From a virus, in the IMG/VR virus record IMGVR_UViG_3300010885_038579, positions 1-32,559 of that record: 32,559 nt of DNA, one strand, 5' to 3'. This document shows, one piece after another, positions 7,529-31,871 of the stretch. Every line of letters begins with the position of its first letter. The stretch's first letter is position 1. Both the position numbers and the translations under genes were made by a program. Below the pieces are notes generated by a model. The model saw only the letters and a list, made by a program, of their open reading frames with translations, had not been told where the DNA came from and did not search any database.

Positions 7529-7529
7529 T

Positions 7530-11841: not shown

Positions 11842-11993
11842 AACGTGTAGAAGTATTAAAGGCTAAATTGAAGGCCGCTAGGGCGGAGAAAGTTATCCGG
11901 ACGCGTGTGTTCCACACAGCCCGAAGAGGGCTCAAGAAAGTCTCGGCGTCCATACATGCTTTGGAGAATCGAATTGAACTGGCGAGAACTTAA
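11838..11993 (+). CDS. Small basic helical protein, function unknown
   Basis: The protein has 51 residues, and its ATG overlaps the helicase stop codon (ATGA). It is rich in Lys, Arg, Ala and Leu with a helical pattern (RVEVLKAKLKAARAEKVIR, then a second helix ending ALENRIELART). It has no other feature and no match I recognise. The overlap and the codon pattern support translation. A role as a nucleic-acid-binding or helicase-partner peptide is conceivable from its charge only. Confidence 0.55.
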   Translation: MKRVEVLKAKLKAARAEKVIRTRVFHTARRGLKKVSASIHALENRIELART

Positions 11994-12607: not shown

Positions 12608-12789
12608 ACATTAGCCATAGGTTCTGCATGGGGTGTGCTCACAGTGTGTTCCCACCAACGAGCTTGGGTGAATGTCACGCCCCCGGTGTGCCGGACGGCA
12701 CTCTGGTTATGCACTGCCGCGCGGAGACAGGCGCTTGCGGGCTTGATGGGAAATTGTACGAGGAGAAGAAACATGACCAAGATTTTTGA
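12604..12789 (+). CDS. Five-cysteine microprotein, copy 2
   Basis: The protein has 61 residues and starts with GTG at 12604 within the previous stop codon. Cysteines at 8, 11, 24, 38 and 45 give C-x2-C-x12-C-x13-C-x6-C, matching the gene at 10052-10243 apart from one residue. Shared words are CAxSVxPPxxLGxC and CRxxxGACGxxxKLYxE. A zinc-binding role is likely and the function is unknown. Similar small cysteine proteins are frequent in phage accessory clusters. The last residues (KKHDQDF) overlap the next small gene. Confidence 0.7.
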   Translation: MNISHRFCMGCAHSVFPPTSLGECHAPGVPDGTLVMHCRAETGACGLDGKLYEEKKHDQDF

Positions 12790-12889
12790 TTTCTTGCGCC
12801 GCTTGTTTGCGCCTGCGCCGCCGCTGACGCTACACCAACGCATACTCGCGGGGCATATTACCAATGCTACACCCTGGAGACGGTTGTGA
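12773..12889 (+). CDS. 38-residue microprotein
   Basis: The peptide has 38 residues with GAGGAGAAG before the ATG at 12773. It begins with an amphipathic basic segment (MTKIFDFLRRLFAPAPP) and ends with Thr, Pro, Trp and Arg residues. The stop overlaps the GTG of the next gene (GTGA). The strong ribosome site and the overlaps at both ends support real translation. An amphipathic N-terminal helix could bind a membrane surface. No family is recognised. Confidence 0.5.
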   Translation: MTKIFDFLRRLFAPAPPLTLHQRILAGHITNATPWRRL

Positions 12890-13419
12890 GCTTGTACATA
12901 GCAAGTCTACCCATTCACAAGTATGTCTTCGTGGACTCGGCTTTCATTCGAAAAAACGGAGTGGGTTTCGAGCCTGCCGTATGGTTCGGCTTAGTATCTC
13001 AGTTCGGCCGAGCTTGGGGTCTGAACGTCATGCTGGAGTCCGGAGCCGTCTATCGATCCCTACCGCCGCACGCCATTGCGTTCAATCAAACGCCAGAACC
13101 TATCTGGGCAATCGAAGACGCCCAGATGTGGGACTGCTACGGCGATACGTTTAGCCTGCATGAGTACGCATATCTGCGTGAGATGCGGGTCAAGACGAAG
13201 GCCGCGCAAGGTATCTATCTGTTCACCGCCGCGTATTTTGGCGACGGCTATACTCGAACGCCGGAGCAGGGCAAAGAATTTAGTTTTATAGAATTAAACA
13301 ACGGCCGGTTAACGGTTCAACCCACTAACCGGACGTTGTTCGAAGACCGTTCGTTTACCGTCAATACAGGCGTTCCGACGGATCTGCTAACGCAGACCGA
13401 AGTTTGGTCGTGTGAGTAG
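12886..13419 (+). CDS. Hypothetical protein, last gene of the rightward cluster
   Basis: The protein has 177 residues and starts with GTG overlapping the preceding stop. It is mixed alpha/beta, aromatic-rich and soluble, with a distinctive late region containing 'FGDGYTRTPEQGKEF' (about 118 to 132) and 'NNGRLTVQPTNR' (about 138 to 149). No catalytic pattern I know is present. Its stop codon (13417-13419) abuts the stop codon of the oppositely directed DUF2589 gene (13420-13422) without a base between, and no terminator separates them. Confidence 0.7.
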   Translation: MSLYIASLPIHKYVFVDSAFIRKNGVGFEPAVWFGLVSQFGRAWGLNVMLESGAVYRSLPPHAIAFNQTPEPIWAIEDAQMWDCYGDTFSLHEYAYLREMRVKTKAAQGIYLFTAAYFGDGYTRTPEQGKEFSFIELNNGRLTVQPTNRTLFEDRSFTVNTGVPTDLLTQTEVWSCE

Positions 13420-14022
13420 TTACTTCGCGGGGACAACAGCGGCCGGAATCGGTGTAATGGCCGATTGCAGCATGTCCAACATCTTCATCAGACCTTCTGG
13501 CGGGCCGTCATCGCGGGCCAGAACGCGGACATCGTACTTAGCGGAGTTGTCTGACGCGCGTGTAGATGCGCTGTGTGACGCGACGCTGCCGTGTAGGTTG
13601 ATCTTCATCGAGAAGATCCCGTAATTCATCTTGGCTTCACCGTCCATAGTGGCCGACGAATCCGACGAAGTTGAGCTGCTATCGGACGAAGACACCGACA
13701 TCGTGAAGTTGACCTCGGCCTCCTTGATCGAGAGGTTCGGAGTGTTGACGATAGCCAACAGCGGAACCTTCAGATCTACAGTCTCTACCGTTACCTTACC
13801 GGTGGTGGGGTCCGGGGCACTCGCGCGGTCAAAACTAAAGTCAACCGTCAGAGCTTCCAGTCCGTCAGCGGTTTTCTTCATACCGACGTTCTGAATGAAG
13901 TTTGCCGTCGCTGCGGCTAGCAGCGTCTGCGCGTCGCAGGCTGCCTGAAACGGGCCGCCAATCAGGTCGGCCATCGGCAGGCCGGTGAATTGTCCGCTTA
14001 TGCTAATCAGATTATCGGCCAT
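13420..14022 (-). CDS. DUF2589-type protein, larger copy
   Basis: The protein has 200 residues, with AAGGAG before the ATG. The pattern 'LPMADLIGGPFQAACDAQTLLAAATANFIQNVG' at the N terminus, then beta-type segments with 'LKVPLLAIVNTPNLSIKEAEVNFTMSV' and an acidic serine run (SSSDSSSTSSDSS, about 111 to 123), is that of DUF2589 proteins known from bacteria and phages without a proven role. The serine run sits in the middle of the beta part, like a flexible loop. The next gene upstream (14040-14480) encodes a shorter relative, so the two may form a hetero-complex. Both follow the giant virion protein gene at the end of the late block. Confidence 0.75.
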   Translation of the reverse strand: MADNLISISGQFTGLPMADLIGGPFQAACDAQTLLAAATANFIQNVGMKKTADGLEALTVDFSFDRASAPDPTTGKVTVETVDLKVPLLAIVNTPNLSIKEAEVNFTMSVSSSDSSSTSSDSSATMDGEAKMNYGIFSMKINLHGSVASHSASTRASDNSAKYDVRVLARDDGPPEGLMKMLDMLQSAITPIPAAVVPAK

Positions 14023-14039
14023 TGGATGGTCTCCTTAAA

Positions 14040-14480
14040 TTAACGGGGGAAAGATTTTAAAATTTTATCGTTCAGCAGCATAACGCCTTCGTGCGCGTCT
14101 CCGCCTTTGAAGGTGATCGACACTTTTGCGGTAGGGTTCCGCGACAACAGACCTCGGGGCATAGCCGCCATCAAAGAGTCGTCGGGCTTATCCAGACCGC
14201 GCAGCTCTACATCAAACTCTACCTTCATTGTATCTACCGCCAGAGAGTGATGCTTGGTTAAGGCAAACAACGGAAGTTCAAAAGGTTGTTGCGTCATCTG
14301 ACCTTGGTCTACATGCGGTAGAGTCACGCGAACAGTCTTCGGCGCGTAGGTGCCGTCGTCTGCTTGAGTGAAGTACCGGTCGCGAAGAGACGTCCACGAG
14401 GCGTTCTCGACCGCTGCCGCAGCATCAACGACAGCTTGATGGACCGCTTCGAATACAGCTTTCAGAGAGAAGGAGGACAT
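14040..14480 (-). CDS. DUF2589-like protein, smaller copy
   Basis: The protein has 146 residues. It shows the same order of elements as its neighbour: an Ala-rich helix (AVFEAVHQAVVDAAAAVENA), then 'FELPLFALTKHHSLAVDTMKVEFDVEL', which matches the 'VPLLAIVNTPNLSIKEAEVNFTMSV' block of the gene at 13420-14022 in pattern, then a beta-type C terminus with 'KVSITFKGGDAHEGVMLLND'. It lacks the serine run. Its ATG is two bases after the stop of the giant gene and no clear ribosome site is seen, so it probably depends on re-initiation. Paralogy with the neighbour is an inference from pattern, not from a computed alignment. Confidence 0.65.
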   Translation of the reverse strand: MSSFSLKAVFEAVHQAVVDAAAAVENASWTSLRDRYFTQADDGTYAPKTVRVTLPHVDQGQMTQQPFELPLFALTKHHSLAVDTMKVEFDVELRGLDKPDDSLMAAMPRGLLSRNPTAKVSITFKGGDAHEGVMLLNDKILKSFPR

Positions 14481-14482
14481 TA

Positions 14483-17400
14483 TTAGGGTGCCAGATCACG
14501 CAAGAATTTCTGTTGAGCTGTTGGTGCCTCATACGGAGCGACGAGGGCATTCAACCGTTGCATCTGCCGAAGTATGAGGGCGTCTGTCTTCACGGTATCG
14601 TTACCCGGTTTTTCTTTTAGCTTTCTGAAATCCGCTATCTGTCTCTTAATCACGTTAACAGCCGGAATAAGTCGAGTTTCCGGATTGTCTTTCTTAAACG
14701 CGGCGGAGGACACGCGGTCTTTCAACATACCTTTGACGTTGTTTTCCAACTCGTTGAGCGTTTTTACGTTTTCAAAGTACCGGGCCTTATCACTGGCCGC
14801 CGAGCCCACATTCCCATAAAACCGGCCAACCACCGGTATTTTATACGTCGGTACTTCTTCACCCTTTAGCCAACCCTCTACCGACGATTCGAGGTGGATG
14901 AGTTCGCGTCCGGGGCCGCCCGTGAGTTGTCCGGCGACATAATCGAGCATGTCGGGCGTCGGGCTCCAGCCTCCGGGCGTGTACTTATCACCGCCGGTCA
15001 AGGTATTTATCGCGCGGGCTACGATCTTACCCACAAAGGTGGCGTTATCTTTGGCGCGGGTGAACCCGGGTGTTAGGTCCAGCGCACTGAAATCTTCGCG
15101 TTCGATTGGTTTACCGGTCCAGTCAGTATTGCTAGCAATCGCCGCCAACGGATCTAACGCCGTAGGCGTAATGGTTTGCAACGTCACTCCGGAACCAAAC
15201 GGGTTGAAAGTTGAGAGCGCGGCGTCAAATACGGAGAATACGTTCTTGCCAATGTTCTGCGGATGAAGGGCCGTCTGCATGGCCAGACGCCCAATATTGG
15301 GCAGAAGGTTAAAACTCAAAGGCATCGGGAACGACACATACTTCCCACTGCCAATAGGCATGATGAAGTTGCGTTGTCTCACAAACTCCGGCGGATCGTC
15401 ATCATCAAACCCGGCCATAGCCAGAAAGACCGCCTGTATTGCGCCCAACAAAAGGCCGCCCGCGATTATCTTCTTACCGGCGGGGCCCGCCAGCGTCTCA
15501 AGAGTCCGCACCGTGCCTTGCACGGAGGGGTTAAAGAACGCGTACAGAGCCCCGATCTGGCTCGACTTCTGTCCCTTACGGTCGAAGTTCACCGTCAGAT
15601 TTTTGGCTAGGCTTGCCGCTTGCGCGTCGGACATTCCGGACTCTACGGCGGTAATGAATGCCGCTAGGCGGGTCGAGTTCTCCATCGCGGTGTTGTAATC
15701 CGATAGCCAACCACCTAGGGCGGGCAGGATCTTTTTTGCAGTACCGTTAGACATACTATCGAGTTCGGCTTGTAAGGCTTTACCCCGATCAGCGGAATTT
15801 TCAAAAGACTGACGCCACCCGGAAGTGCCACCAGCATTTCGAAGGCGTTCAAAGTAGAGGTCATACGGGGTGGCCGCTGAAGCGCCCTTAGCCCGCTGCG
15901 TTCTCGCGCCTTTGTAGATTGCCGCGAGTGCCGGAAAGACGTGCTTCAAAACCGTAAATTGTTTTCCGGCAATGGGTGTTGTGGAAAGATTAAGCAACGC
16001 TGTCGGCACGTCGCGCGTAAGATTGATAAGGCCGAATACAGGGTTGTACTGCGTGTTAAGAGCCGCGAAGTACCGTGTGATCTGGGCGGCGGCACCAACT
16101 AGCCCATCCAAAGACGGCAAGTCTAGGTTCTTTAGCGCGGCCACCATCCGCATAGCTTGCGGGTCACTCTCATTGAACGCTACGCCTTGGGCGACCATCT
16201 TGCCGTTTTTGTCCAAACGGATACTCATAAGGACGTTATCGTCCTTTTGGTAGCTCATATCCAATACGTTCACAGGTTCTCCGGTCTCGACGTCTATCGC
16301 AGACGTGATTCCTGGTGCTGCAAGCGACCACATATCGGAGGGGAAGGTTTTGGCCAAAGCGTAGATCGCACGCGCGATTATGTTCTTCTCGCCGCGCATG
16401 ATGGCGCGGTCTCTCTGGTGAACAATGTTAGCCAGCACATCGACTACGGGAAGCTTAGACCCTTTTCGGTGGAACGTATTCGGGCCTCGAACGGAAACAC
16501 CTTGGCCTGAACCCGCGCCGATATTCTTACCTTCGCGGTTGAACGGCACATAGTACGGCTGCTCGCGTTCCATCTTGAGGACATCGTCGAGTGTCGCCAT
16601 ACCGTAGCGAACCCACTCACGCCGCGTCTTCGCGGTTATGGCATCCACACGTTTGGCCAAAGCCTCAAACGCCGTCCGCTGCTTGGGTGTCAACGCCGCT
16701 AGGTATGCTTGCGCGTCCGTTGTCGATACCCCCGCACCGTCTAAATTGGGGAATTTCGTATCGGGTTGCGCCGCGATAATAGCGTTGGCATCAGGAGCCG
16801 CGCGCATCCACAGGTAATTGCCGAGTTCATCTACACTGACACCGCGCATCTTCATATCCTCCAAGAGCGGTCCAAGCTCGCGGAGGGTAAAGTCTTCTAC
16901 TCTCTTAGCCACTTTAGAGGTAAGGCGTTCCACCATGCTGTACGCGTCTAAAGTTTCCGGCAATTTGGCAACGCGGGCTCTGATGGACTTCATCAGGTTC
17001 TTAAGATCTACGAACCTGTCCACAAGATTGTATGTTAGCCGGTCTTTTTCTTTTTCTACGCGGGTGCTTGGCACAGGAAGCGAAGGTCCGGGTTGGCCTT
17101 GGACAGCATTAAAGGTATTGCCCTCACTGAGCATGTTCGGGCTCTGGCGCTCGCCTTCATTTGCGGCGTTGAGTACGTTGTCCAACCCACGAATAACCGC
17201 AGCGTTGCTGGGGAAGTTGAAGAGTTCCTGAATCTTAGCCTTGAACTCTCTGAGCCACTGCACCGCGCGCTGAACCCAAGACTCGCTGGCGCGTGCGGCC
17301 ACGATATCGGCAGCGTTAACCGCCCAGAACTCAGAAGGGTTTATGTACTGGTAGAAGTCTTGCGATAGCGTTCCGTTCCGTATGCCGTCCGCAACGCGGT

Positions 17401-20400
17401 TGTAGGCGGCGGTATCACCTGCTGCCGCAGCCAATGCGTCGCGGATATGTTCAACCATTTCCGTGTCTTTTGTTCTGATGGCGGCGTCTAGCATACCTGT
17501 GATTTGAGAGAGCCATTCCGCGCGAATGCCAGCCTGTATGTCCTCGGGCATCATGCGTTCCGCGTGATGCAGAATCTCGTGCGCGATCAGCGTATCTTGG
17601 CCGCGCCCTTTGAAGAGGGTCATAATGCGCGACATCGGATTATAGTTGCCCGAAGCGTCGTTAGACCTTGCGGCTCTAAGGGATATGCCCAGATCGTTTG
17701 CAAGATTAGGGTTGTTGTTTAACAGCCACATACCCAGCCGAACCTGCTCGCGGTTCATCTGGCCCAGACGTGCGGCGCGCAGAAGACGCTCCTGTATCCA
17801 ATCGTATCCCCGCGACCGTTCGCGTACAGGTCTGTTAGCGGCCTGCACCCTAAGATCACGCGCGAGCGCCACGACGCCGTTCTTCAACGCTACGGGGTCT
17901 GTTTCGTCTTCTAGTTTGTTCAGACGAACCGTAGTCTGAACCGCGTTGTACGGTATGCTCTCGACTACTTTCTTTCGCGCGCGAGTTTTTCCATCAGAGC
18001 TTTCACGTTCTTCGCCGCCGCGTCGGCCTGGGCGTCCGACATCTCCGGTTGATCCGGGTCGGGGTCCGTCAGCCACGGAGCCCAGTTGTCCTTCGGCCCG
18101 CCGTCTGTCATAGAGTTTTTTGAGTTCAATGGCGTAATCGACATTTATACCCTCGCTATCTCGTCCACCAAGTTTGCTATACAGCTCTTTTTCCGGATAC
18201 CACCAAACGGCTTGTAAGTCGGCAGGCGTTATGGTTACCCCGTCTGCCTTCAGCTTTTGCCGGGCTTGAGCAACAACAGATCTTATCCACTCTCTTTGAG
18301 CGCCGCTTGACGGGGTTTCTTTTAGACCGGCCAGACCAAAAATAATACGTTCGGCGGAGTAAGTAAGCTCTGACTTTACCCGCTCTCCGCTGTCGTACTT
18401 ATCGCGGTTTTCGCGGTAGTCAGACTCATGCTGTTTTACGACGCCTCGGGCTAACTTTATAAGGGCGGGCAGCGTTTCAGGAACAGGTCTTTCGGTGGTT
18501 TTTAGAGCGGCCTCAAATCTTACGCGTTGTTTAGTGCGTGAGGCCTGCGTCCCACCAACAAGATTTCCGGTTAACCTACCCCAACCGCGCATGAACCACA
18601 GGTCCATCGTGACGGGCGTAAAATTGTTGTTGAGGTTCTGGTAAAACCCTTGGCCTATCTTAGGGCCTAGAATTGCCGAACCGTAAACTTTGGTCTGTTT
18701 ATTCTCGCCGCCGACCTTATAACCCGCATCGTTAAGTTGCTTTACGGTGAACTCCGAGAATAAAAACTCGTTGGTCCCGTCCAACCCCAAGTTAGCGATC
18801 AGTTTGTTTAGGAGGCGGAAATTTCCGTTTATGCTTTTCTGCTTCTTAGCCAAAACATTGGTTGGGAAAACACCGGTCTTTTTGAAACTGGCGTAAACTT
18901 GTTCGGCCAACCTTACGTTAGACGCTACGGTCTCACCTTGGCTCGTTACCGCGAGCGCAAGCGTGAAAGCCATCTTCTGGTTCTTGTCCGCCAGTTCCGG
19001 GTGTAGCTTGAGGGCGGTCTTCATCGCTTCTTTGACGCGCGTTGAATACCAGCCGGACGCGTTCTTTCCCGTGCGGCCGAGTGCGGCCTTAACTTCGGAC
19101 GCGATAGCGGAAGAGAGTATATCGTCTGTTTTGGGGTTTGGGCCTTGGATGACGCCGGTTGTAACACCCAGTTTTTTGAGCGCCGCGCGCCCCCTAAACA
19201 TAAGTTCCGTAGCGATTGCGGGCACAGTTCTAGAGCGGGCTTTAACGGCGGGATAACTTTCACGGAGGATTGCGTTTACCGTGAGAGCCTCTAGGTCTCG
19301 CCCGCGAAGGAACGCCGGGGCGCTATCGGTCACAACATAAGAACCATCAGCCAACAGAGCGCCTCGGGCTTTGCTGATGAGGGCTAATGCTTCTGCGTTC
19401 GTCTTGCCTTCCATCGCGTCGGCGAGCTTGGTCAGCCCGATCTGACGGATGATATTCTGCACAACGGCGATGAACTTATCCAACCCGCGAATAGTGACGT
19501 TCTCGCTCGACATAATAGCCAGAGCTTCATCGATAGCCCGCATACGCACATACTGTGCGGCCCGCTCTGGTGTCCGGCCCAAACGTATTGCGTCGGCTTC
19601 CAAATCCGCGCCAAACGACTTAGTCCATTTCGCAGCCTCTTCGCGGACCCTCGGGTTCCGCGCCGCGATAGTGACAAGGGCCGCGTTGAATTTTTTGGAA
19701 CCGGACTTGTACAAACGATCCAGACCCGCGTGCAGGATCTCATGCCAGACCGTTATCTGGGCATCAACCGCATTCGTTATATTCTCCGCGAAGAGATGTA
19801 TTTTGCCTTGGGCGTACATCCCCTTAGCGCCCACGGGAATGTCTACGCCCGTCTCGGCCCGCGCTTCTTCTACGGTGCCGTATATCTCGGTGCCGATCTG
19901 CAATTTGTCTAAGGCGCTGATGACCGCCGCTTCAACTTCGAGAGTCGTGATAGAACCGCCGGGTGCAGTGCCGATTAAGAATTTCTCGGTCTGGGCCTTA
20001 ATACGTTCTACCGCGTCTTTGTCGCCAATATGCTTCAAGTTTGGAGTGTTCTTCGGTGTATTGCCAAACACCTTTCCCCCAACGGCTTGCAGCGACAAGG
20101 CTTGCGCGCTCTCGTCGTACAGGATGAGGGCACCACCCACCGTCGTCACGCTGTTGGCTTGCGTGTCTTTGTCCACGGTGAGGTCACCACCCACCGTCGT
20201 CAGACTGTTGGCTTGCGCGTCTTTGTACAGGAGGAGGTCACCCCCCACCGTCGTCACATTGTTGGCTTGCGCGCCTTCGCTTAGGAGGAGGTTACCCCCC
20301 ACCGTCGTCACGCTGTTGGCTTGCGCGCCTTCGAGCAGGGCGAGGTTACCCCCCACCGTCGTCACACTGTTGGCTTGCGCGCCTCTGTGCAGTTCGAGGT

Positions 20401-23400
20401 CACCCCCCACCGTCGTCACGCTGTTGGCTTGCGCGCCTACGAGCAGGGTGAGGTCACCCCCCACCGTCGTCAGGTTGTTGGCTTCCGCGTTTTCGTGCAT
20501 GTAGAGCCCACCCCCTACCGTCGTCAGGCTGTTGGCTTGCACGAATCTGTGCAGGACAACGCGGCCACCCACCGTCGTCAGGTTGTTGACTTGCACGCCT
20601 ACATCTACTTGAAGGTCACCGCTCACCGTTGTCAGGTTGTTAGCCTGCACGCCATAGGACATGTAGAGGTTACCGATAACTTCTACAACCCTATTGGCGT
20701 ACTGGGCCGGTAGGTATGACCATGGACCCTCCGTTAGAAGGACAAGGTCACCATTGGCCTTTTCGTATACGCGGATGCTGGCTCCGCCACTGTCAATTTC
20801 CTCGACGAAAGTGGCTTCCGACGCCAGTCTCTTAAGTGCCAGAGACCTATCCGTTGCGTCTTGCAGAGCTTTCTTAGTTCTTGGCGCGAGATTCTGAATC
20901 TTTCCAGAATCAACAAGCGCCTGCACCTCGCCCGCGTACTGAGATGGAATACTGCCGTTATTGGCCCGGCCTTGAATTTCCGCAACGTCCGATCCTTCAA
21001 AGCGTATCGCCAGCTCGGGTTTACCGTTGTCCACATAAACCCAAAAGTCGCCCTGTGCTATGTACGGCGCGGCGTTATATGTTTTAGTGCACCAGCTCTC
21101 GCTACTGATGGCTTGAACCTCGGCAACACGTTCCGCAAAATTTGGATCAGACTTGGCTGTTTGAGGCACCTTACGCCAACCGTTTTGAGCATCCCCAAGC
21201 TCCACCAAATCGGCTGTGGCCGCCATCTTCGCGGCACGGTACGCCTTAGTGAAATTAGGCGCGGTGCCTTCAAGGAACTTACCGTACACCGTCGCAAGAG
21301 CCGCAGCGTTGAAGGTCTCGCCCGTATTGGGTTTCGTCGCATCAAACGTGTTCACAACGCCGTGGGCTACATAGCTCTTCCAGAACGGATCTGAACCTTG
21401 TTCTGTGTTTACATTGTCGAAGTAGTTCTTCCAGCGGGCTATGTTTCCTTCACGAGCCCTCTTTACATCCGCCAATAACGTACCAACCGCGCCGCCTTCG
21501 TCGCCGTTTTTGTACGCTTGAATTGCATCCTGTATGTTCTGAGGAAGCAGCGGGCCTTCTACCGCGATGACACCCTCTAGGTACGCTTTGGCGTCGAAGG
21601 CTGGAAGAGCGTCGAAGGTCTTCGTGTAGTCCGCCTCGGCCGCCGCTTTGGCTTGGGCCAGCGTCTTAACAACACCGAAGTCTATGAGCTTCTTAACTTC
21701 CGCAAATTCTACCCACGCTTTGGCCGTTCCCGTCGCGCCCATCTTGTCGGACTTGACAGAATAACGTACATCACTGATGTCTCTGAACGTCACATTTCGG
21801 GCCAACACTAGCGGCCCAATCTGAATGACCTCATCAGCATGTGCCAGTTGACGTTGCGTTCTGCGGTCGTAGAACCCCTCGTGGCGTTCTGGGTCCATGC
21901 CGACTTGAGTCCAGGCAGGGTCGTTAAGGAACTTTTCCGCCATCGCTTGAATGTCTTCAGCGGAAGTTTTTGTCCAGAAACCATCCATTTTAGCAAACGG
22001 TGATTTTGCGCCGCCGCGCGCTACGCGCAGCGCTTTATCCGAAGAGACACCAAAATCGACGTCGGTGATACGCGCGAAGGGTGCGTGAGCGATAGGCTTG
22101 CTGCCCTCGGCATGACCTTTGTGGATAGTCGGAGCCCACACGTTGTTGTCGGTATACGCCTCGATATCAAGCCGCAACCCAACAGCTTCGCCTTCAGGGA
22201 TGTTTGTCTCTTGGCCAATACGCGCAATCTGGTCCTTACGCAACCCACGCTCTAGATCAAGTTGAGTCGGCATCGCCGGAACAGATGTGAAGGGCCGGAC
22301 AGGTTTATAGATGTCCACTAACCTTTGGTATTCCTCGCGAGACATAAGCCCCGCGTACACCTTATCGGCTGCATCTTGAAGTTCCGGAACACGCCCCTTC
22401 AAAACTCTTCTTGGGAGAGCTACCGCAGCGCCATCTCCACCTTCCGCAGCAGATCCGCCGCGTTCTTGGCTTCGGGTGCTAGTCGTATTGCCGCGCCCAA
22501 CTCCTTCGCGTACCGAGTCTGCCCCATCCCTTCCTGCTCCGCCGGGCCTAGCAGCCCGCTCAGGTAGCCGCTGAAATTTTGTAAGTTCGGCATCGCCGTC
22601 CAAGCGGATTCCACGAGCTGTGAGATTACCATTTGCGTTCCTTTCCATAAAATATTCGGCCACCGCATCGTAGCGTTGCAGTAGCTGATCTACATTCTGT
22701 ACTGCGGTCGCCATATCGCCCGAGACCGCCAACTGCACCGATAATCTAGCAAGTTCCGGGATAAATCCAGTTTCGCTGTGGTTCCGTTCCGCATGGTGCG
22801 TTAGTTCGTGAACCATGGTTCCGACAAATGTGCCAGCCCTGTCGGCGCGCGACACGGTGTCAGGTCTCATCGGGCCGCCCGTTTCCTTATCGCGCACTAC
22901 CAGCGGGTTAAGCATGATGGCTTTGAACGGAATAACCGTGTTGACCCCGTAGTATTCAAGGTCAAAACTAAGCCCGGTAGGAACTTGGGTTACGGATGCG
23001 TATGAAGCTCCCCCTACACGGGCCACGGCCGCGCGCAGCTCTTGCAGCACAACACCAAAATCGCGCAGAAACCCGTTAACGGCATTCGCACCTAACGCTA
23101 GGCGGGCTTCTTCCAGCAGCGGTTTTCCGTCCGTCAGCACGTTGTCGTGAACTAAGATGTCGCGGGGGTCAATTTGACTTTGATCTACGCGGAACTGGGC
23201 CGGGTCACGCCGCATCGCCTTAATGTTTTCTTTGGTCAACGGCGGCGTTAACTTATTGTTAACGTACACGCGGCCGTCGGTTACCGTCACCACATCCGAA
23301 GGATCGATAGAAAGCACTGATCCTACCGCTGCGTCGGGGATGTTGAGGTCGATGCGTTTGAGTACCGACCCCTGCGGGCTTTGCGAGATAAGCGTCAACT

Positions 23401-26400
23401 GACCAAACGATTTGGCGGAATCTTGTTCCGACTTATTTGCGTACAGGACATTTACATAGCTTATCAAGGCCGCCATATCGCTTTTCCCCGACGGGGAGAA
23501 GTCTTTACGGTTTAGCGCGATAGGGTAACGCGGCGAATCCGCTTTAACGTCGGGCTCTAAATTAAGTATGAAGTCGTAGGGAACGGGGTCGCTATACGGC
23601 CTTCCGGGCTCTTTAGATATTCCGAGAGAAAACTGGTTCAAACCTTCCGACAGCACGTTAAAATTGCCGCCCCGGCTTGAGTATTTGTTGGGCCGGACCA
23701 ACAATCGGGCCGTACCCCACGCAAACTTTACCGCTGTCAGAAGAGTAGCGCCGTTAAGTTCGTACCTTGCGCCGACAGGACGTATCTCACCGTTAAATAC
23801 GACATCAATATTCGCGAATAGGGGGCTGGCGTCTATTAGGTCGCGCAGTTCATAATTAGCCGGGAAGTATATATTTTTGACTTCTTCGGTGTCTGTATCC
23901 ACATAGGTCTCTGGAAGGGTAACAACTACCGTAGTTCCCGGCGCGGCGGTTGTGGAACGGGTTTCAATCTGAGGCGCGCGGGTGCTGTCATCGAGAGCCT
24001 CCGCAATCTGTTCGCCCGACGTATCCATCCGATGAATTTTGCCCGCTCGCACCGTCTCCAAACGCAACGCCTTGTTGCCCAGCAAGAAAAGCATTTTGGC
24101 TATGCCAAGGCCACCCGACGCGCGGGCGGTGTCTTTCTCTGTCCCCGCCATGGTCAAGAAAGCCTTGTTGATGGTGTCTAAAGCCATCCCGCCGCCGTCG
24201 TCTACAATGGTAATCGTGCGTGCGGTTCTATCCGTGGTTATGTTGATGTGGCCGAGAGAAATGCTGCCGCGCTCTAGCGCACCCTTGACCGCATCGAAAG
24301 AGTTCTGGAACAATTCCTTAACGGTCACGATGCCGATATCGCTCATGTTACCGTAGAGCTGCGGGCCGAGTAGCTTCGTCATACGTTTTTTGTTTATGTC
24401 CGGCTTTGAAGCGGTGAAAGTCGCTTCACCTTCGGACGCAAGCGCTGCTTTCGCCGCGTCAACCGCTTCGACGACTTGTGCGTCGGCCCCTGCTTTGGCT
24501 TCCGGGTTTAGCAAAACGGATTTAAGATTAACCCGCGACGCCTTAGTGGGCGCTGTGAGGTGCTCAACTGTACGACTTAAAATGCGGCTCGCGATGGATC
24601 CGGGGTCAGCCTGAGACGCCTTCTCTTTCAAGTTTTCGATCTGCGCGTCTAGGTTGATTGGTTGCGGAGCGGCTGTTTGGGCTACGGGCGCAGCGTCTTC
24701 AGTCGCGGCGCGCTGTTCTCCTGCGTGTGTCCATCCCGCTACATAAGCCGCATTCCACTCCGGGCTTTCTTTGTCCATCTCCCGCGCCGTGGTGAAGGGC
24801 GCAAGACCCAAGAACTCGTTCACAGCGCTCATAAACGCTGGTTGGAACTCCGCCGGAATTTCCGCGACTTTAGTCTCCGCCGTGTCGAGAACTCTTGCCG
24901 CGAGTTCCGTATCTCCAGCGAGTTCAAATTCTTTGGGCGGTGCAAAAGCTGCGGGCGTATCCGCCGCGCGCTCGGGTGCGAAGACAAATTCACGCGGTTG
25001 AGGCGAACCTGCGGGCGTCTCGGCAGGCGCTACGGTCTCGCCAAGGGCGACGGGCGCAATGGTCGCACCCGGGTCTTCGGCCTGAAGAATATCGAGAAGC
25101 GGAGACCCGGAGGTGTACTTGCGATTGGCATCGTCGGACAAGTCCGTGACGTTGCCGTCTTCTTCGATAGCCTGAAGGCGGCTATTAATGTTATCAAACC
25201 GGACGGAAACTGGCGCATCGTTTACCGTGAAGTTGCCCAATACCGTAAGGTCGCTTTCCACAGCGCCGTTTGAGCCCACTTCAATCGTATTGACCGTATT
25301 GTCGTCGTTCGTCTTTGTAAGACGCGTGCGATATTCAGAACCGCTTGGGACTTCCTTGTACCCTTCGGCGATACGGTCCGGCACAGTTACCGGATTGGAT
25401 ACCGTACCGGCCGCTAAAGTTGCCGCAGCGGCAAAGTCCTCTATGGTTTCATTAATATTTGTAATGCGTTTAACAATAGGTGCGGGGCCCTGGGAACCGT
25501 TTAGGGCGTCAGCTTTCTTCTTAGCAAGCGTGGCTTCCGTCTCGGCGGCCGACGGCGCAACTTCTCTCTCGGCAGGCGTTGGCTTCGCAGCAGCAGCAAG
25601 TTTGGCTTCAATAGCCGCCGTCCTTGCGCGGCTCTCCGAAAATAAGGCTGCCTTATCAAGCGGCTGATCCGGCTCGGGCGCGTTCGGTTCGGCGGGCGTG
25701 GTGAGCTGTTCGGGGCTGAGATCCACAGCCAGCTTCTGCTGAATGGCCAACCCGGCGTTGCGGGCCCATACGTTAGAAGCCCAATTATTCCCGGCGTCTT
25801 TACGCGCGTTGCTGCGGGCCTCTTGCCGTTCTGCGTTCTTCTGCCCGTCGGACTTGCTGTTGTCCGAAGATATATCTTCGAGCTTTGTCTGAAGGTCCGT
25901 ATCGTTCTTTTCGTCAAATGCGGTCAAGTCCGCATGTACGCGTACCGCTGCGCGGTAGCGTTCGTTCTCGGGAGCGTCTGCATTCGCAAGCGGAGCGTTC
26001 TCTTGCGCGCGTTTATAGTTCGCGTGTATTCCAAACGGCGCGAGCAATACGCTCATAGCCAATGCGGCTTCGCCACCCTCTAAGCCTACAACCCAAGGAC
26101 TCTGAGGGTTCTTGGCCCCGTAGGCATTCTCGACGGCGGTCTCTCCGGCCCCTTGGCCAAATTCCGTAAGCGCCTCTTCACCGGCACCAACAACAAGAGC
26201 TTTAGCCGCAGGCCGCAACACCGCCGTTGAAGTGGCTCTACCGAGTATTGCGGCCGCTGTGTTCTTTACGAAGGGGCTAACGACGCCCTTGAGTAGACCG
26301 CGTGTGGCCATACCACCAATGGACTCGCCGCCCGCTTCAATCGCACCCGACAGCCAACCGGCTTTCTTAGCGTCTTCTTCCGAGACGCCGTCGGCCCGTA

Positions 26401-27217
26401 GCTTTTCGTAAGTGTCTTCGGCTTGAGATCCACCAAATAAACCTATGGTGGTTAGTTCTCGCGTGCCGATACCAATGAGGGCGGAGAGCCCCACACCTGC
26501 GCCTAGTTCCACGGCCCCAAACGCGGCCGCCGTAGCAACCGCGACGGAAGCCATCGACGGTGCCAGCATTCGAGCACCCTGAGAAAACACGCGGCCAACA
26601 CCAGTTCGGCCCTCAAGTTGCGGGGCTAGCCACGGGTGCTCGATTTCTTCTGACTTAGCCCAATCACGCAACCCCTTACCGGAACCGGGGTTCACCCAAT
26701 CGGCCGCCTTCCCTATCATGTCGGGAACATCGACAACGAGCCCCGCAAAAGCCTGCACCGCTATCTCGGAAAGTATATTGCGCGGCTCTTCGGGTTCCGC
26801 GAGCAGGTCTTTCGGCGCGGGTTGCGCGAGCATATCTTTCGGCGCAGGGGCTGCGCCGCCCGCCGGAACGTAGGTATCGCCATCCCAACTTCCCGGTTTT
26901 CCGTACGCGGCGTATTTAGACTGATCGGAGAATGTCGGGTGGTTCGGCTTCTTGAACGTATCCGGCCAATGACCGGTCTCGGGGTCGGGTTTAACACCCG
27001 CCAAAAACGCGCCGTGAAGGTCGTAATCCGCGCCGGAGTCTTTGGGTGCGTTCGCGGCTTTCCAAGCCTGAAACGCTGGTTCCTGATCGGGGGGTATTCG
27101 AGTTTCGAACGCGACCTGCGGTGTGTAGTAAATCTCAAAAGCCGCCAGAGCGGCGTCCGCGTCGGGCGCGTCTACATTGAAGGCCGCGTTATCTTTTTCA
27201 AGCCTGAAAAGCGGCAT
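14483..27217 (-). CDS. Giant polyvalent virion-associated protein with GHKL ATPase and three zincin-like motifs
   Basis: One open frame of 4,244 residues. Elements in order: a GHWPDTFKKPNHPTFSD motif typical of phage virion proteins (about 82 to 98); a hydrophobic, Ala/Gly-rich membrane-type region (about 200 to 400); an acid-rich linker; a GHKL ATPase with N box KELFQNSFDA (Glu968, Asn972), DDGGGM (1006 to 1011) and GGLGIAKM (1035 to 1042); zincin-like HELTH (1470); a conserved block with FYDRRTQ...ADEVIQIGPLVLA (about 1780); an ESWCT domain (Trp2042); ten 18-residue repeats (2190 to 2370); a second HEILH (2492); a block with TMDLWFMRGWGR (about 2870); a third HEILHH (3213); and a C-terminal region with YNPVFGLINLTRD (3724), resembling large polyvalent-protein domains such as LPD38. 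Its ATG overlaps the stop of the virion-type gene upstream. It is probably packaged and ejected into the host. Individual activities are untested inferences. Confidence 0.85.
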   Translation of the reverse strand: MPLFRLEKDNAAFNVDAPDADAALAAFEIYYTPQVAFETRIPPDQEPAFQAWKAANAPKDSGADYDLHGAFLAGVKPDPETGHWPDTFKKPNHPTFSDQSKYAAYGKPGSWDGDTYVPAGGAAPAPKDMLAQPAPKDLLAEPEEPRNILSEIAVQAFAGLVVDVPDMIGKAADWVNPGSGKGLRDWAKSEEIEHPWLAPQLEGRTGVGRVFSQGARMLAPSMASVAVATAAAFGAVELGAGVGLSALIGIGTRELTTIGLFGGSQAEDTYEKLRADGVSEEDAKKAGWLSGAIEAGGESIGGMATRGLLKGVVSPFVKNTAAAILGRATSTAVLRPAAKALVVGAGEEALTEFGQGAGETAVENAYGAKNPQSPWVVGLEGGEAALAMSVLLAPFGIHANYKRAQENAPLANADAPENERYRAAVRVHADLTAFDEKNDTDLQTKLEDISSDNSKSDGQKNAERQEARSNARKDAGNNWASNVWARNAGLAIQQKLAVDLSPEQLTTPAEPNAPEPDQPLDKAALFSESRARTAAIEAKLAAAAKPTPAEREVAPSAAETEATLAKKKADALNGSQGPAPIVKRITNINETIEDFAAAATLAAGTVSNPVTVPDRIAEGYKEVPSGSEYRTRLTKTNDDNTVNTIEVGSNGAVESDLTVLGNFTVNDAPVSVRFDNINSRLQAIEEDGNVTDLSDDANRKYTSGSPLLDILQAEDPGATIAPVALGETVAPAETPAGSPQPREFVFAPERAADTPAAFAPPKEFELAGDTELAARVLDTAETKVAEIPAEFQPAFMSAVNEFLGLAPFTTAREMDKESPEWNAAYVAGWTHAGEQRAATEDAAPVAQTAAPQPINLDAQIENLKEKASQADPGSIASRILSRTVEHLTAPTKASRVNLKSVLLNPEAKAGADAQVVEAVDAAKAALASEGEATFTASKPDINKKRMTKLLGPQLYGNMSDIGIVTVKELFQNSFDAVKGALERGSISLGHINITTDRTARTITIVDDGGGMALDTINKAFLTMAGTEKDTARASGGLGIAKMLFLLGNKALRLETVRAGKIHRMDTSGEQIAEALDDSTRAPQIETRSTTAAPGTTVVVTLPETYVDTDTEEVKNIYFPANYELRDLIDASPLFANIDVVFNGEIRPVGARYELNGATLLTAVKFAWGTARLLVRPNKYSSRGGNFNVLSEGLNQFSLGISKEPGRPYSDPVPYDFILNLEPDVKADSPRYPIALNRKDFSPSGKSDMAALISYVNVLYANKSEQDSAKSFGQLTLISQSPQGSVLKRIDLNIPDAAVGSVLSIDPSDVVTVTDGRVYVNNKLTPPLTKENIKAMRRDPAQFRVDQSQIDPRDILVHDNVLTDGKPLLEEARLALGANAVNGFLRDFGVVLQELRAAVARVGGASYASVTQVPTGLSFDLEYYGVNTVIPFKAIMLNPLVVRDKETGGPMRPDTVSRADRAGTFVGTMVHELTHHAERNHSETGFIPELARLSVQLAVSGDMATAVQNVDQLLQRYDAVAEYFMERNANGNLTARGIRLDGDAELTKFQRLPERAARPGGAGRDGADSVREGVGRGNTTSTRSQERGGSAAEGGDGAAVALPRRVLKGRVPELQDAADKVYAGLMSREEYQRLVDIYKPVRPFTSVPAMPTQLDLERGLRKDQIARIGQETNIPEGEAVGLRLDIEAYTDNNVWAPTIHKGHAEGSKPIAHAPFARITDVDFGVSSDKALRVARGGAKSPFAKMDGFWTKTSAEDIQAMAEKFLNDPAWTQVGMDPERHEGFYDRRTQRQLAHADEVIQIGPLVLARNVTFRDISDVRYSVKSDKMGATGTAKAWVEFAEVKKLIDFGVVKTLAQAKAAAEADYTKTFDALPAFDAKAYLEGVIAVEGPLLPQNIQDAIQAYKNGDEGGAVGTLLADVKRAREGNIARWKNYFDNVNTEQGSDPFWKSYVAHGVVNTFDATKPNTGETFNAAALATVYGKFLEGTAPNFTKAYRAAKMAATADLVELGDAQNGWRKVPQTAKSDPNFAERVAEVQAISSESWCTKTYNAAPYIAQGDFWVYVDNGKPELAIRFEGSDVAEIQGRANNGSIPSQYAGEVQALVDSGKIQNLAPRTKKALQDATDRSLALKRLASEATFVEEIDSGGASIRVYEKANGDLVLLTEGPWSYLPAQYANRVVEVIGNLYMSYGVQANNLTTVSGDLQVDVGVQVNNLTTVGGRVVLHRFVQANSLTTVGGGLYMHENAEANNLTTVGGDLTLLVGAQANSVTTVGGDLELHRGAQANSVTTVGGNLALLEGAQANSVTTVGGNLLLSEGAQANNVTTVGGDLLLYKDAQANSLTTVGGDLTVDKDTQANSVTTVGGALILYDESAQALSLQAVGGKVFGNTPKNTPNLKHIGDKDAVERIKAQTEKFLIGTAPGGSITTLEVEAAVISALDKLQIGTEIYGTVEEARAETGVDIPVGAKGMYAQGKIHLFAENITNAVDAQITVWHEILHAGLDRLYKSGSKKFNAALVTIAARNPRVREEAAKWTKSFGADLEADAIRLGRTPERAAQYVRMRAIDEALAIMSSENVTIRGLDKFIAVVQNIIRQIGLTKLADAMEGKTNAEALALISKARGALLADGSYVVTDSAPAFLRGRDLEALTVNAILRESYPAVKARSRTVPAIATELMFRGRAALKKLGVTTGVIQGPNPKTDDILSSAIASEVKAALGRTGKNASGWYSTRVKEAMKTALKLHPELADKNQKMAFTLALAVTSQGETVASNVRLAEQVYASFKKTGVFPTNVLAKKQKSINGNFRLLNKLIANLGLDGTNEFLFSEFTVKQLNDAGYKVGGENKQTKVYGSAILGPKIGQGFYQNLNNNFTPVTMDLWFMRGWGRLTGNLVGGTQASRTKQRVRFEAALKTTERPVPETLPALIKLARGVVKQHESDYRENRDKYDSGERVKSELTYSAERIIFGLAGLKETPSSGAQREWIRSVVAQARQKLKADGVTITPADLQAVWWYPEKELYSKLGGRDSEGINVDYAIELKKLYDRRRAEGQLGSVADGPRPGSTGDVGRPGRRGGEERESSDGKTRARKKVVESIPYNAVQTTVRLNKLEDETDPVALKNGVVALARDLRVQAANRPVRERSRGYDWIQERLLRAARLGQMNREQVRLGMWLLNNNPNLANDLGISLRAARSNDASGNYNPMSRIMTLFKGRGQDTLIAHEILHHAERMMPEDIQAGIRAEWLSQITGMLDAAIRTKDTEMVEHIRDALAAAAGDTAAYNRVADGIRNGTLSQDFYQYINPSEFWAVNAADIVAARASESWVQRAVQWLREFKAKIQELFNFPSNAAVIRGLDNVLNAANEGERQSPNMLSEGNTFNAVQGQPGPSLPVPSTRVEKEKDRLTYNLVDRFVDLKNLMKSIRARVAKLPETLDAYSMVERLTSKVAKRVEDFTLRELGPLLEDMKMRGVSVDELGNYLWMRAAPDANAIIAAQPDTKFPNLDGAGVSTTDAQAYLAALTPKQRTAFEALAKRVDAITAKTRREWVRYGMATLDDVLKMEREQPYYVPFNREGKNIGAGSGQGVSVRGPNTFHRKGSKLPVVDVLANIVHQRDRAIMRGEKNIIARAIYALAKTFPSDMWSLAAPGITSAIDVETGEPVNVLDMSYQKDDNVLMSIRLDKNGKMVAQGVAFNESDPQAMRMVAALKNLDLPSLDGLVGAAAQITRYFAALNTQYNPVFGLINLTRDVPTALLNLSTTPIAGKQFTVLKHVFPALAAIYKGARTQRAKGASAATPYDLYFERLRNAGGTSGWRQSFENSADRGKALQAELDSMSNGTAKKILPALGGWLSDYNTAMENSTRLAAFITAVESGMSDAQAASLAKNLTVNFDRKGQKSSQIGALYAFFNPSVQGTVRTLETLAGPAGKKIIAGGLLLGAIQAVFLAMAGFDDDDPPEFVRQRNFIMPIGSGKYVSFPMPLSFNLLPNIGRLAMQTALHPQNIGKNVFSVFDAALSTFNPFGSGVTLQTITPTALDPLAAIASNTDWTGKPIEREDFSALDLTPGFTRAKDNATFVGKIVARAINTLTGGDKYTPGGWSPTPDMLDYVAGQLTGGPGRELIHLESSVEGWLKGEEVPTYKIPVVGRFYGNVGSAASDKARYFENVKTLNELENNVKGMLKDRVSSAAFKKDNPETRLIPAVNVIKRQIADFRKLKEKPGNDTVKTDALILRQMQRLNALVAPYEAPTAQQKFLRDLAP
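20054..20650 (-). repeat. Ten 54-base tandem repeats inside the giant gene, plus a degenerate eleventh
   Basis: Each unit encodes 18 residues on the pattern (A/V)QAN(S/N)(L/V)TTVGG(D/N)LxLxxx. The first begins at 20650 and the tenth at 20164, exactly nine times 54 bases apart. The TTVGG core is invariant in nine units and TTVSG in the first; residues 13 to 18 vary. The tenth unit has one extra residue, and an eroded eleventh follows to about 20054. The pattern resembles leucine-rich-repeat-like solenoids with 'LTxVGGxLxL' units. Confidence 0.95.
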
Positions 27218-28449
27218 CAGTTTACCGGTCTAATCGTAACGCCGCGTACTACCGTCTTGCCATTATTGGCCGGGACGGGTTTCTTCTTATCGTCTTTGGC
27301 GGCTGCGGCTTCGTCAGCCTCAGTCTTGAGTTGCTGGTATAGGGCCTTGGCCGCTGGACTAAAGAAGTTCTTGTCTTTGTAACTCGTCAGACCTAACTCA
27401 AAGGTATCCATATAACCGTGAGGAAGTGTCAACTTCCCGGTCTCGTCCGGTCCTTTCGCTACAGCAGCGTTTATTTTTTCCGCCATGGATTTAACCGTAG
27501 GCTCCCGTTGTTTTAACCCTTCCCTCGTCACATTCTCACCCATTGTGGTCACAGTCTCACCCATTGTGGTCAGGAGCCCCCCCACGGGTGTCGGTGCTTC
27601 AACTATGGTGGGGGTGGCGGCTTTGCCGGGGGTGGCAGCGCTGCCGGGGGCGGCAACGGGTGCGGGAACGGGGGAGACTTTATCTTTCGGATACGCTTCC
27701 TCGGTTAGTCTCTTGTATAGGCTTTGAAATCCGGGAAGAGACGAACGTATAGCCTCAACGTCCGGGTCGTTATCAGGCGCGCCAGCTTGTTTTAACCGTG
27801 CAAGTTCTGTCTGTTGCGAAGCTATGTAGGTACCTATACCGGCTCTCTCCTGACGGTTCGCTATACGCTCCGCGCGGTCTCCCTCTATCGACCATGCTTT
27901 CGCATCCCGCTCCGCAATAAGCGTCTGTTTAATAACGGGATCGGTTTCCGTAGCGATTTTACCGGTAAGGTCTTTTATGCTTTTATCCGTGTCGTATTTG
28001 AGTGTTGCGGCATTAGTCTGGATGTTTTTATAGGCGGCTTCAGCGGATGCGTAGGGGTTAAGAGCATCGTATTTAACTTTTTGCGCCGCTACCCATTTGG
28101 GATCGTTTGCGTGTTGCTTATCTAGGGTAGTCTGAAAATTATCTAAAGCCGTAAGTTCTAATGTTTTAGCCTTGGTTATTTTATCGATGTTCGTCGGATC
28201 TGTTGCTAGATCTATCTCAGCTTGTTTGGCGTTTTTCACCGCATCGAGCGCCCAAGTTGCTCTAATTGGCTGTTGGGTTTGCTCGGCCGTCCATTTTCTC
28301 TCTTCACCACGAATTGTGGCTTCTTCCGCCAGCTTCGCAGCCAGCCGGATTTTGTCCTGTTCCAGCGTGGCTTTGACGCCTTCAAGACCTACCGTGGCCA
28401 AACCTTTACCGGCCTGCGAGAGAGCGTTACCCCAGTTTAGAAGCGCCAT
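27217..28449 (-). CDS. Probable internal virion protein, helical
   Basis: The protein has 410 residues. It begins with a short amphipathic segment (NWGNALSQAGKGLATVGLEG), typical of phage ejection proteins, followed by about 230 residues of charged helix. Then comes a Pro/Ala linker (about 245 to 275) with a small repeat, TTMGETV/TTMGENV, and a helical C-terminal part that ends in a basic tail. There are no enzymatic motifs. It lies directly before the giant gene (stop and start share one base), so the two are made together and are likely to be in the same virion structure. The identification rests on context and composition. Confidence 0.6.
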   Translation of the reverse strand: MALLNWGNALSQAGKGLATVGLEGVKATLEQDKIRLAAKLAEEATIRGEERKWTAEQTQQPIRATWALDAVKNAKQAEIDLATDPTNIDKITKAKTLELTALDNFQTTLDKQHANDPKWVAAQKVKYDALNPYASAEAAYKNIQTNAATLKYDTDKSIKDLTGKIATETDPVIKQTLIAERDAKAWSIEGDRAERIANRQERAGIGTYIASQQTELARLKQAGAPDNDPDVEAIRSSLPGFQSLYKRLTEEAYPKDKVSPVPAPVAAPGSAATPGKAATPTIVEAPTPVGGLLTTMGETVTTMGENVTREGLKQREPTVKSMAEKINAAVAKGPDETGKLTLPHGYMDTFELGLTSYKDKNFFSPAAKALYQQLKTEADEAAAAKDDKKKPVPANNGKTVVRGVTIRPVN

Positions 28450-28933
28450 TTTGGTACCCTTTGTATTGTGTCATCTTGTCGGGATCACGCAGCAGCGTAT
28501 GCACTTGCTCTAAAGACGCGTCCAGAGTCTCTTTAGGTACCTTGAGATAGGGTAGGATCGTATCCATAAAAAGCTGTGTAGCCCTATCTAGCTCGTCGGG
28601 CGTTATTGTCAAAAGTTTCATCTTTTCGGCGAAATCTAGCGCGTGCAACATCAACGTCAGGGCCGCAGCCACCATTGGTTTAAGCGGCATGGTGCCTTTA
28701 GCACCCTGACGCAACGCGCCTACAACGGCGATGGCACCCTTGACCGAATCAGACAGGGGGTCTTTGCTGTTTCGAAGCGAAGCAATAACGCTGTCAGACC
28801 CCTTGAACATAGCGTATTTCATGCCCGCAACGACGATCTTGAGATAGTTATCGCGGTCATACGCAGGAACCGTCTTCTCGACCGATACTTCGGTCTGCCT
28901 AAGAAGCGTGTTTTCGATCAATAATCCGGTCAT
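28427..28933 (-). CDS. Virion-region protein, function unknown
   Basis: The protein has 168 residues, all-helical in appearance, with no signal peptide and one moderately hydrophobic helix (about 88 to 101, MVAAALTLMLHALD). It overlaps the next gene by 23 bases and the previous by four, so it is part of the same late operon. The acidic-hydrophobic pattern and the size match small proteins found between ejection proteins in podovirus-like phages, but I do not recognise the family. Confidence 0.6.
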   Translation of the reverse strand: MTGLLIENTLLRQTEVSVEKTVPAYDRDNYLKIVVAGMKYAMFKGSDSVIASLRNSKDPLSDSVKGAIAVVGALRQGAKGTMPLKPMVAAALTLMLHALDFAEKMKLLTITPDELDRATQLFMDTILPYLKVPKETLDASLEQVHTLLRDPDKMTQYKGYQNGASKLG

Positions 28934-29766
28934 GCTGGCACTCCCGTAACCGTGTTCGCGTAGGCGTTTATAAGACCCGGCGCGCGCAGCTTACCCGTAA
29001 CCGGATCTATTGTGTAACCCACCGGAGGGGTTGCTTGTGCAACGGCGGTCGGGGCTTTGGGCTGGAACGTCCCTAAAGGTGCCAACATATTCAACCGTTG
29101 CTGTTCTTTCAGAGCGGTATCTGCGGTTAACGCAGCGGTCTCCGCATTTGTTTTTTCTATTCCGGGGCCGACGCTTGGGTCGAAAGCTCCGGCGGCGGCG
29201 GTGCCCAATGTAGTTATTGCGCCGAAAGTTATTGCCGGATTTTTCTCTGCAAACGCCAGAAACCCAGAACTGGTCCCGGCGACATCGGCTGTAGTCTTAG
29301 CAACTTCGGACGCGAGCGCGGTAGCGGTTTCGCCGCTAACAGCGGCACCGGGCTCAAGCGACATAACATTTATGCCGGTTTTTTTGCCTGCCTCTACGGC
29401 GGCGGTCATCACAGCCGTGTCGGCAGCTTTTGCCGCGTTAAACGCGTTAAACTCAGTCCCCGTAGACGTTTTGAGCGCCCCAAGGCTCATCTTCTCTTGG
29501 AACGGCGTTACACCTTTACCGATGCCGCTTGTGGCCTTCAGGGGGTCCGAGATCCAACCCTGACTGGTCGCAAAACTACCCACACCACCGACGATACCCG
29601 CAATCATTCCAATCTTTGTTAACGTCTTGTTCTTAGTAACCGCACCCACAGCGCCCACAACCGCGCCTACCGTTCCGATGATCTCAAAGGCGCTTAGGGC
29701 GGCAATACCTACCGAGGCGGCGGAGGCTACTGAAAAAGCCGCTAGACCTACAGCTACTACGGGCAT
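28930..29766 (-). CDS. Probable internal virion protein with hydrophobic N terminus
   Basis: The protein has 278 residues. The first 65 are strongly hydrophobic and rich in Ala, Gly and Val (SVASAASVGIAALSAF, then IIGTVGAVVGAVGAV, then IGMIAGIVGGVGSF) and could form two or three membrane helices, without being a normal signal peptide. Another hydrophobic patch is at about residues 178 to 194. The rest is Ala/Thr-rich, with a short proline-containing end. Proteins of this type are carried in phage heads and enter the host membrane during ejection. It overlaps the GNAT-like gene by ten bases. Confidence 0.6.
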   Translation of the reverse strand: MPVVAVGLAAFSVASAASVGIAALSAFEIIGTVGAVVGAVGAVTKNKTLTKIGMIAGIVGGVGSFATSQGWISDPLKATSGIGKGVTPFQEKMSLGALKTSTGTEFNAFNAAKAADTAVMTAAVEAGKKTGINVMSLEPGAAVSGETATALASEVAKTTADVAGTSSGFLAFAEKNPAITFGAITTLGTAAAGAFDPSVGPGIEKTNAETAALTADTALKEQQRLNMLAPLGTFQPKAPTAVAQATPPVGYTIDPVTGKLRAPGLINAYANTVTGVPA

Positions 29767-30152
29767 GATGCGTTCCTTATACCTTTGGCGGAAGGCTGTT
29801 CGAGTCTGAAATGCGTGTAGAACTCGTCCTCTCCGGTTATCTTGAAACCAAGTATCTTATTAAAGCGACTCTGGCGGACATCTTCTTTGGGCGTCCGCGT
29901 GGTCACGCAACCGTACTGCTCCAGAATAGGATTCAGATAGCGGCGAATGTCCGCCCGCGTTAGTGACCACTTGCCGCCAAATCGGGCGAAGTGAAATTCT
30001 GATCCCTTATTAAGTGTCGCGGCAACCATCGTTCCATTCTCATAATGCGGTGTGATAGCCCAATCCTCAAAACCCGCCAAAAACTCTTGCTTCGTAATGA
30101 ATACCGCTTCTTCATTCGCGGCCCACAACAGCTCTAGTATGTCAGCTCTCAT
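29757..30152 (-). CDS. Small GNAT-like virion-region protein
   Basis: The protein has 131 residues. The pattern resembles the small acetyltransferase-fold proteins in podovirus structural operons (T7 gp13-like position): a helix (ILELLWAANEE), beta strands (TMVAATLNKGSEFHFARFG), 'SLTRADIRRYLNPILEQYGCVTTRT', then 'RFNKILGFKITGEDEF', where N-x-x-L-G-F is the usual end of GNAT-like folds. The acetyl-CoA loop (Q/RxxGxG/A) is not evident, so enzymatic activity is doubtful. Its place between helical virion proteins suggests an assembly role for the internal core. Confidence 0.55.
   Translation of the reverse strand: MRADILELLWAANEEAVFITKQEFLAGFEDWAITPHYENGTMVAATLNKGSEFHFARFGGKWSLTRADIRRYLNPILEQYGCVTTRTPKEDVRQSRFNKILGFKITGEDEFYTHFRLEQPSAKGIRNASCP

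Positions 30153-30158: not shown

Positions 30159-31871
<1,713 letters not shown>

Follow-up and report, generated by a model that had tools for sequence, protein, structure and literature searches.

The window analysed here is the entire IMG/VR record, a linear sequence of 32,559 bases, and its central feature is a single ORF that encodes 4244 amino acids from an ATG start without an internal stop (Table 1). Compared with the closest relative (locus L002), the C-terminal core differs by 0.175, 0.126 and 0.476 at codon positions 1, 2 and 3, respectively; this third-position bias indicates that the frame is under purifying selection at the protein level. The record is probably a partial genome, and since it lacks head genes, we infer podovirus morphology from relatives. 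One of these, the complete podovirus genome ctNMl277 (MW202483), has replication genes collinear with those of the window (DNA polymerase, 56% identity; primase, 51%; exonuclease, 49%; helicase, 60%). A tRNA-Met (CAT) gene lies at the record edge (266-343). The features that the first-pass annotation had read from the letters, namely the unbroken frame, a GHKL ATPase, three HExxH motifs, a repeat solenoid, a hydrophobic region and a polyvalent-type C terminus, were all recovered, the hydrophobic region as two stretches beginning at residues 232 and 3917.

Table 1. Features of the giant ORF and of the ORFs upstream of it, in window coordinates.
Feature	Coordinates	Strand	Remarks
Polyvalent protein ORF	14483..27217	-	One cysteine, residue 2043
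N-terminal segment, residues 1-150	26768..27217	-	About 67-73% identity to close relative L002
Hydrophobic stretch, residues 232-250	26468..26524	-	–
Segment 540-740	24998..25600	-	67% conserved with L002
GHKL ATPase and transducer region, residues 915-1355	23153..24475	-	N box KELFQNSFDA; DDGGGM; SGGLGIAK
Zincin 1, residues 1355-1535	22613..23155	-	HExxHxxxxxH at 1470-1480; WLM/YgjP-like
Module 1600-1830	21728..22420	-	Recurs in relatives; weak match to Phage_L5_gp82 / phrog_586
Region 1850-2140	20798..21670	-	Holds the sole cysteine (2043, ESWCTKTYN); the searched sets gave no relatives
Solenoid, residues 2196-2375	20093..20632	-	Ten 18-residue repeats, TTVGGxLxLxxxAQANxL
Zincin 2, residues 2422-2639	19301..19954	-	HEILH at 2492; likely third ligand in DEALA (about 2563)
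Module 2640-3031	18125..19300	-	Strongly conserved among otherwise differing giants; weak DUF7178 match
Zincin 3, residues 3095-3373	17099..17935	-	HEILH at 3213; likely third ligand in PSEFWAVN
Constant C-terminal core, residues 3374-4244	14486..17098	-	LPD38; nearly all helical; TM-like stretch 3917-3935
410-aa protein	27217..28449	-	No cysteine, likely co-ejected; 74% identity over 110 aa to ORF beside the L002 giant
168-aa protein	28427..28933	-	No cysteine; homologues in other giant-carrying contigs
278-aa protein	28930..29766	-	No cysteine; hydrophobic N terminus
131-aa protein	29757..30152	-	Homologues in other giant-carrying contigs
570-aa protein	30159..31871	-	No cysteine; homologues in other giant-carrying contigs

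The C-terminal core of about 850 residues contains an LPD38 domain at residues 3940-4130 (Pfam E=1.6e-35; 123 bits against a curated cut-off of 27) and is carried by at least 566 viral contigs and 143 phage records, Stx-converting phage records among them. Since the models used to gather relatives from viral contigs and phage records derived from the window, all module counts given here are lower bounds. In 92 of 94 ORFs the core is C-terminal, with the match ending 15-36 residues before the C terminus. Its AlphaFold model, of moderate confidence (pLDDT 70), is mostly helical. The core matched no PDB fold at E<=0.001 and we found no solved homologue; kinship with N4 vRNAP C2 or T7 gp16 was considered and dropped, as the comparisons detected no sequence similarity to either.

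Ahead of this constant core, the cargo has been swapped and reordered, even between giants that are 77% identical in the core. This is the case for L002, which is 83% identical to the window giant in module 2640-3031 but has that module before zincin 2, the reverse of the order in the window; the core is adjoined by zincin 2 in L002 and by zincin 3 in the window. Other giants carry the same modules in other combinations, including a tandem duplicate.

The GHKL assignment rests on motifs, Pfam and structure prediction. The N, G1 and G2 boxes are present, the segment matches HATPase_c_3 (E=1.7e-5, approximately residues 965-1100), as do 20 of 20 relatives, and the AlphaFold model of the GHKL-zincin unit (mean pLDDT 80) has a GHKL fold, a transducer and a confident helical zincin part. 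The model matches structures of TRAP1/Hsp90, MORC (MORC3) and GyrB (E about 1e-12 to 1e-10); TM-scores over the whole query are about 0.3, as the matches cover the GHKL and transducer part only. In an alignment of 20 sequences that are 26-51% identical to the window, the E, N and D of the N box, the D and G of G1, the GG.G..K of the lid and the HExxHxxxxxH of zincin 1 are invariant. Zincin 1 comes after the GHKL domain in all relatives checked; three near-identical loci (L022-L024) from which it had seemed absent carry it further along (HEIAHHTVRNHN, checked in L022). The unit (residues 915-1560) was found at 27 viral loci by an alignment-based scan, where a scan for a pattern taken from the GHKL segment of the window had found no relatives, and 24 of 29 ORFs carrying it exceed 2,000 aa. 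In the set of cellular genomes searched there were only two matches, both partial and weak and both in MAGs, so the unit looks viral. Zincin 1 itself seems weakly close to the WLM and YgjP peptidases and to metzincins: its profiles match WLM (9 of 16 members) and YgjP (8 of 16) below the curated cut-offs, and its match to WLM/Wss1 structures (E about 5e-3) scores much like that to a snake-venom metzincin. A padloc match to a restriction enzyme was weak and covered part of the ATPase only, and that identity was rejected.

The three HExxH motifs, at residues 1470, 2492 and 3213, compare with 0.022 expected, and none of 3000 shuffles had more than one. Zincins 2 and 3 resemble MPTases in pairing HExxH or HExxxH with a downstream Glu that is conserved across relatives. 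For zincin 2, most of 27 relatives have HExxH or HExxxH together with the DEALA/EEVLA glutamate; for zincin 3, nearly all of nine relatives have HExxH with PSE(F/Y)WA(V/I)N. Together with the invariant residues of the GHKL-zincin unit, the conservation of catalytic and third-ligand residues in distant relatives suggests that the GHKL segment and all three HExxH segments are active domains, as the first-pass annotation had supposed. Three HE(2-3)H sites occur in two of 54 non-redundant relatives and most have one, which places the window at the high end. Two candidate resemblances were discarded: a PcfJ-like identity for region 1850-2140 had no Pfam support, and an HhH-GPD DNA glycosylase in module 2640-3031 was not borne out by hhalign against E. 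coli Nth and MutY. The latter module had no match among PDB sequences.

The giant lies at an ejection-protein locus. In ctNMl277, the sister backbone, three cysteine-free proteins, one of them a lysozyme, take its place, and in BcepIL02 most genes just before the giant are annotated as virion-associated; linkage to virion (late) genes is seen mostly in relatives. In the window, the four cysteine-free ORFs upstream of the giant (410, 168, 278 and 570 aa) fit co-ejection. Evidence from virions comes from JC1 gp69, a DarB-like protein of 4,515 aa most similar to Bcep22 gp75, for which 51 unique peptides were found in CsCl-purified virions (PMC9144972). JC1 gp69 is tied to the window through members of its group, the 'DarB-like' giants of BcepIL02, DC1 and BcepMigl, which are homologous to the window core (25% identity, E about 1e-35). 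Packaging of the window giant in the virion is therefore supported through homologues, and its packaging and ejection together appear well supported when position and composition are also considered.

Other neighbours are of separate interest. Directly downstream of the giant are two adjacent DUF2589 proteins (13420-14022 and 14040-14480; Pfam E 1e-40 and 3e-15; conserved in locus L003 at 93% and 84%), next to a protein in a moron-like position (12886-13419) that matches a PHROG family annotated as ferredoxin (E=1.4e-20). The SNF2-type helicase at 10483-11841, the one 60% identical to that of ctNMl277, matches the defence helicases Zorya ZorD and DISARM DrmD.

The giant has a single cysteine in 4,244 residues (P=6e-21 against the other ORFs of the window). 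The same depletion is seen in 90 giants with the core, which have 49 cysteines in 235,129 aa (0.02%), 63 of the 90 having none; the remaining ORFs at these loci have 0.93%. After removal of similar sequences the count for the giants is 38 in 188,274. Proteins of established ejection, reviewed in PMC8954989 for P22 and T7 and described in PMC12633501 for N4, share this property, with no cysteine in 4,294 residues of N4 vRNAP, gp51 and gp52, none in 1,309 of P22 gp7, gp20 and gp16, and one in 2,261 of T7 gp14-16. Taken together, these ejected proteins have one cysteine in 7,864 residues against 76 in 10,730 (0.71%) in the other virion proteins of the same phages (Fisher P=2.5e-17). In crAss001 gp47, gp49 and gp50, which are thought to be cargo, there are five in 6,102. 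P1 DarB, a virion antirestriction protein, runs against the rule with nine in 2,255 residues. Since a homologue from the Bacillus phage Pony, which has a Gram-positive host, has none in 1679, periplasmic oxidation is not a simple reason for the depletion and we do not favour it as the sole cause. Nor does size alone predict cysteine loss, as the Bacteroides phage BKO1-TP3 also encodes a 2,638-aa protein with 41 cysteines; its gp55 (L130, 22667-39328) is a 5,553-aa DarB-like giant with a related core and 0.14% cysteine. In a partial search of the literature we did not find the rule stated, and as far as we have found, the near absence of cysteine from these giants, as from the ejection proteins of N4, T7 and P22, is new.

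By sequence, the giant, with several unrelated domains in one chain of more than 2,000 aa, belongs to the phage-type polyvalent proteins, which were described as a class in 2017. In the text consulted, Iyer et al., 2017 (PMC5512222) describe polyvalent proteins that share with the window LPD38, several zincin MPTases, the giant multi-domain form and a late-gene setting, and their MPTases, including an HEXXXH variant, fit zincins 2 and 3 and the HExxxH of relatives. GHKL or HSP90 is not named in the main text of that paper, and the portions searched do not describe a GHKL-zincin unit, a fixed core with reordered cargo or a lack of cysteine. The first-pass annotation had called the length and combination unusual, a view that did not hold: L020 encodes, at 5645-21301, a 5,219-aa ORF with the GHKL-zincin, three HExxH motifs and the same core, in effect a larger version of the window protein, and with relatives reaching 5,553 aa neither size nor recipe is exceptional for the class. 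The Lessievirus giants (BcepIL02 gp70, JC1 gp69 and Bcep22 gp75) are similar to the window giant only in the C-terminal core, at about 25% identity. The BcepIL02 giant is free of cysteine (none in 4,667 aa) and preceded by virion-associated proteins, but it has only one HExxH, and JC1 gp69 differs in matching a HepA-like helicase. N4 virion RNA polymerase is also a cysteine-free giant ejected with DNA, in which a large helical C-terminal domain comes after an HExxH domain (PMC12633501), but its T7-type RNA polymerase module is absent from the window giant and the C-terminal domains have no detectable similarity. The GHKL motifs and transducer fold are common to Hsp90/TRAP1, MORC and GyrB, whereas in this phage giant they are joined to a zincin; zincin 1 shares HExxHxxxxxH with the Wss1/SPRTN-like WLM and YgjP peptidases, with weak profile matches. 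As far as we have found, it is new that a GHKL domain and an HExxHx5H zincin form one fixed module with invariant catalytic residues at 27 viral loci, and we found no description of an Hsp90-like GHKL fused to a protease in the literature searched.

Based on these observations, we consider it likely that the giant is a phage-type polyvalent ejection protein that is packed, threaded into the host, refolded and cut by its own zincins. The giant would be packed in the capsid and would travel with the DNA down the tail into the host as a mostly unfolded chain. Packaging, ejection or membrane anchoring may fall to the constant LPD38 core, with its one membrane-like stretch, and the preceding 3,370 residues would be exchangeable cargo: the GHKL clamp-zincin, the solenoid, two MPTase-type zincins and further modules. 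After refolding in the host, the zincins would probably cut the chain into working units, cut host proteins, or do both, and the released units could then act on host proteins or defences. Because GHKL needs ATP, the GHKL-zincin unit would work in the cytoplasm; alternatively, the GHKL part may provide Hsp90-like refolding of the chain after entry. The virion homologue, the position among ejection genes and the cysteine-free signature all point to entry with DNA, as had been proposed from the sequence, while the counter-defence role proposed with it is a plausible guess.

The position of the giant and its helical core would also suit a structural ejection channel, or ejectosome, in which the enzymes aid entry only, for example by cleaving envelope proteins, and the cytoplasm need not be reached. 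The sister phage has ordinary ejection proteins, including the lysozyme, at this locus, and the ejection proteins of T7 and N4 are similarly helical with TM-like stretches. However, an intact GHKL domain requires ATP, which is absent in the periplasm, and the swapping of cargo between near-identical phages suits effectors better than channel walls; we regard a mainly structural role as possible but doubtful. A non-ejected protein acting late inside the cell, as an assembly protease or chaperone, would agree with the resemblance of the GHKL domain to Hsp90 and with the proposal that zincins of some jumbo phages process virion proteins (PMC7824862), but a homologue is found in virions and the near absence of cysteine is common to proven ejected proteins and not to phage cytoplasmic enzymes, making such a role very unlikely. 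GenBank names the relatives DarB-like, yet the giant resembles them in the C-terminal core only, and a domain search of the ORF found neither LPD36, adenine methylase nor SNF2 helicase; that the giant is a DarB-type antirestriction protein is hardly credible.

Within the preferred reading of an ejected polyvalent protein, a bolder and rather improbable suggestion is that the injected GHKL-zincin is an ATP-gated protease, in which a GHKL clamp, as in MORC, MutL and Hsp90, closes on DNA or a client protein and feeds it to a WLM/SPRTN-like zincin, so that the incoming phage DNA is stripped of host defence proteins. If true, such a mode of counter-defence would be one that we have not found described. 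The unit is in any case a concrete, conserved catalytic module to express and assay, the enzymes of this class of giant phage proteins having hardly been tested. Furthermore, our comparisons suggest that the near absence of cysteine is a simple sequence signature by which ejected phage proteins can be recognised in unrelated families (T7, N4, P22, crAss001 and the LPD38 giants). With its help, candidate injected effectors could be sought in any phage genome, and it has a bearing on the passage of giant proteins through a tail channel of about 35 angstrom.

Two relatives raise questions of classification. The Methanosarcina virus MetMV (L013, MK170447) encodes a 3,002-aa protein whose LPD38 core is 41% identical to that of the window, closer than in many named bacterial phages, and the host assignment of this named archaeal virus deserves a check. 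Limnohabitans phage DC33 (L014, PQ492659), an inovirus in GenBank taxonomy, is probably misclassified: its 39-kb genome has a tailed-phage-like gene order and a 3,125-aa cysteine-poor giant that shares module 2640-3031.
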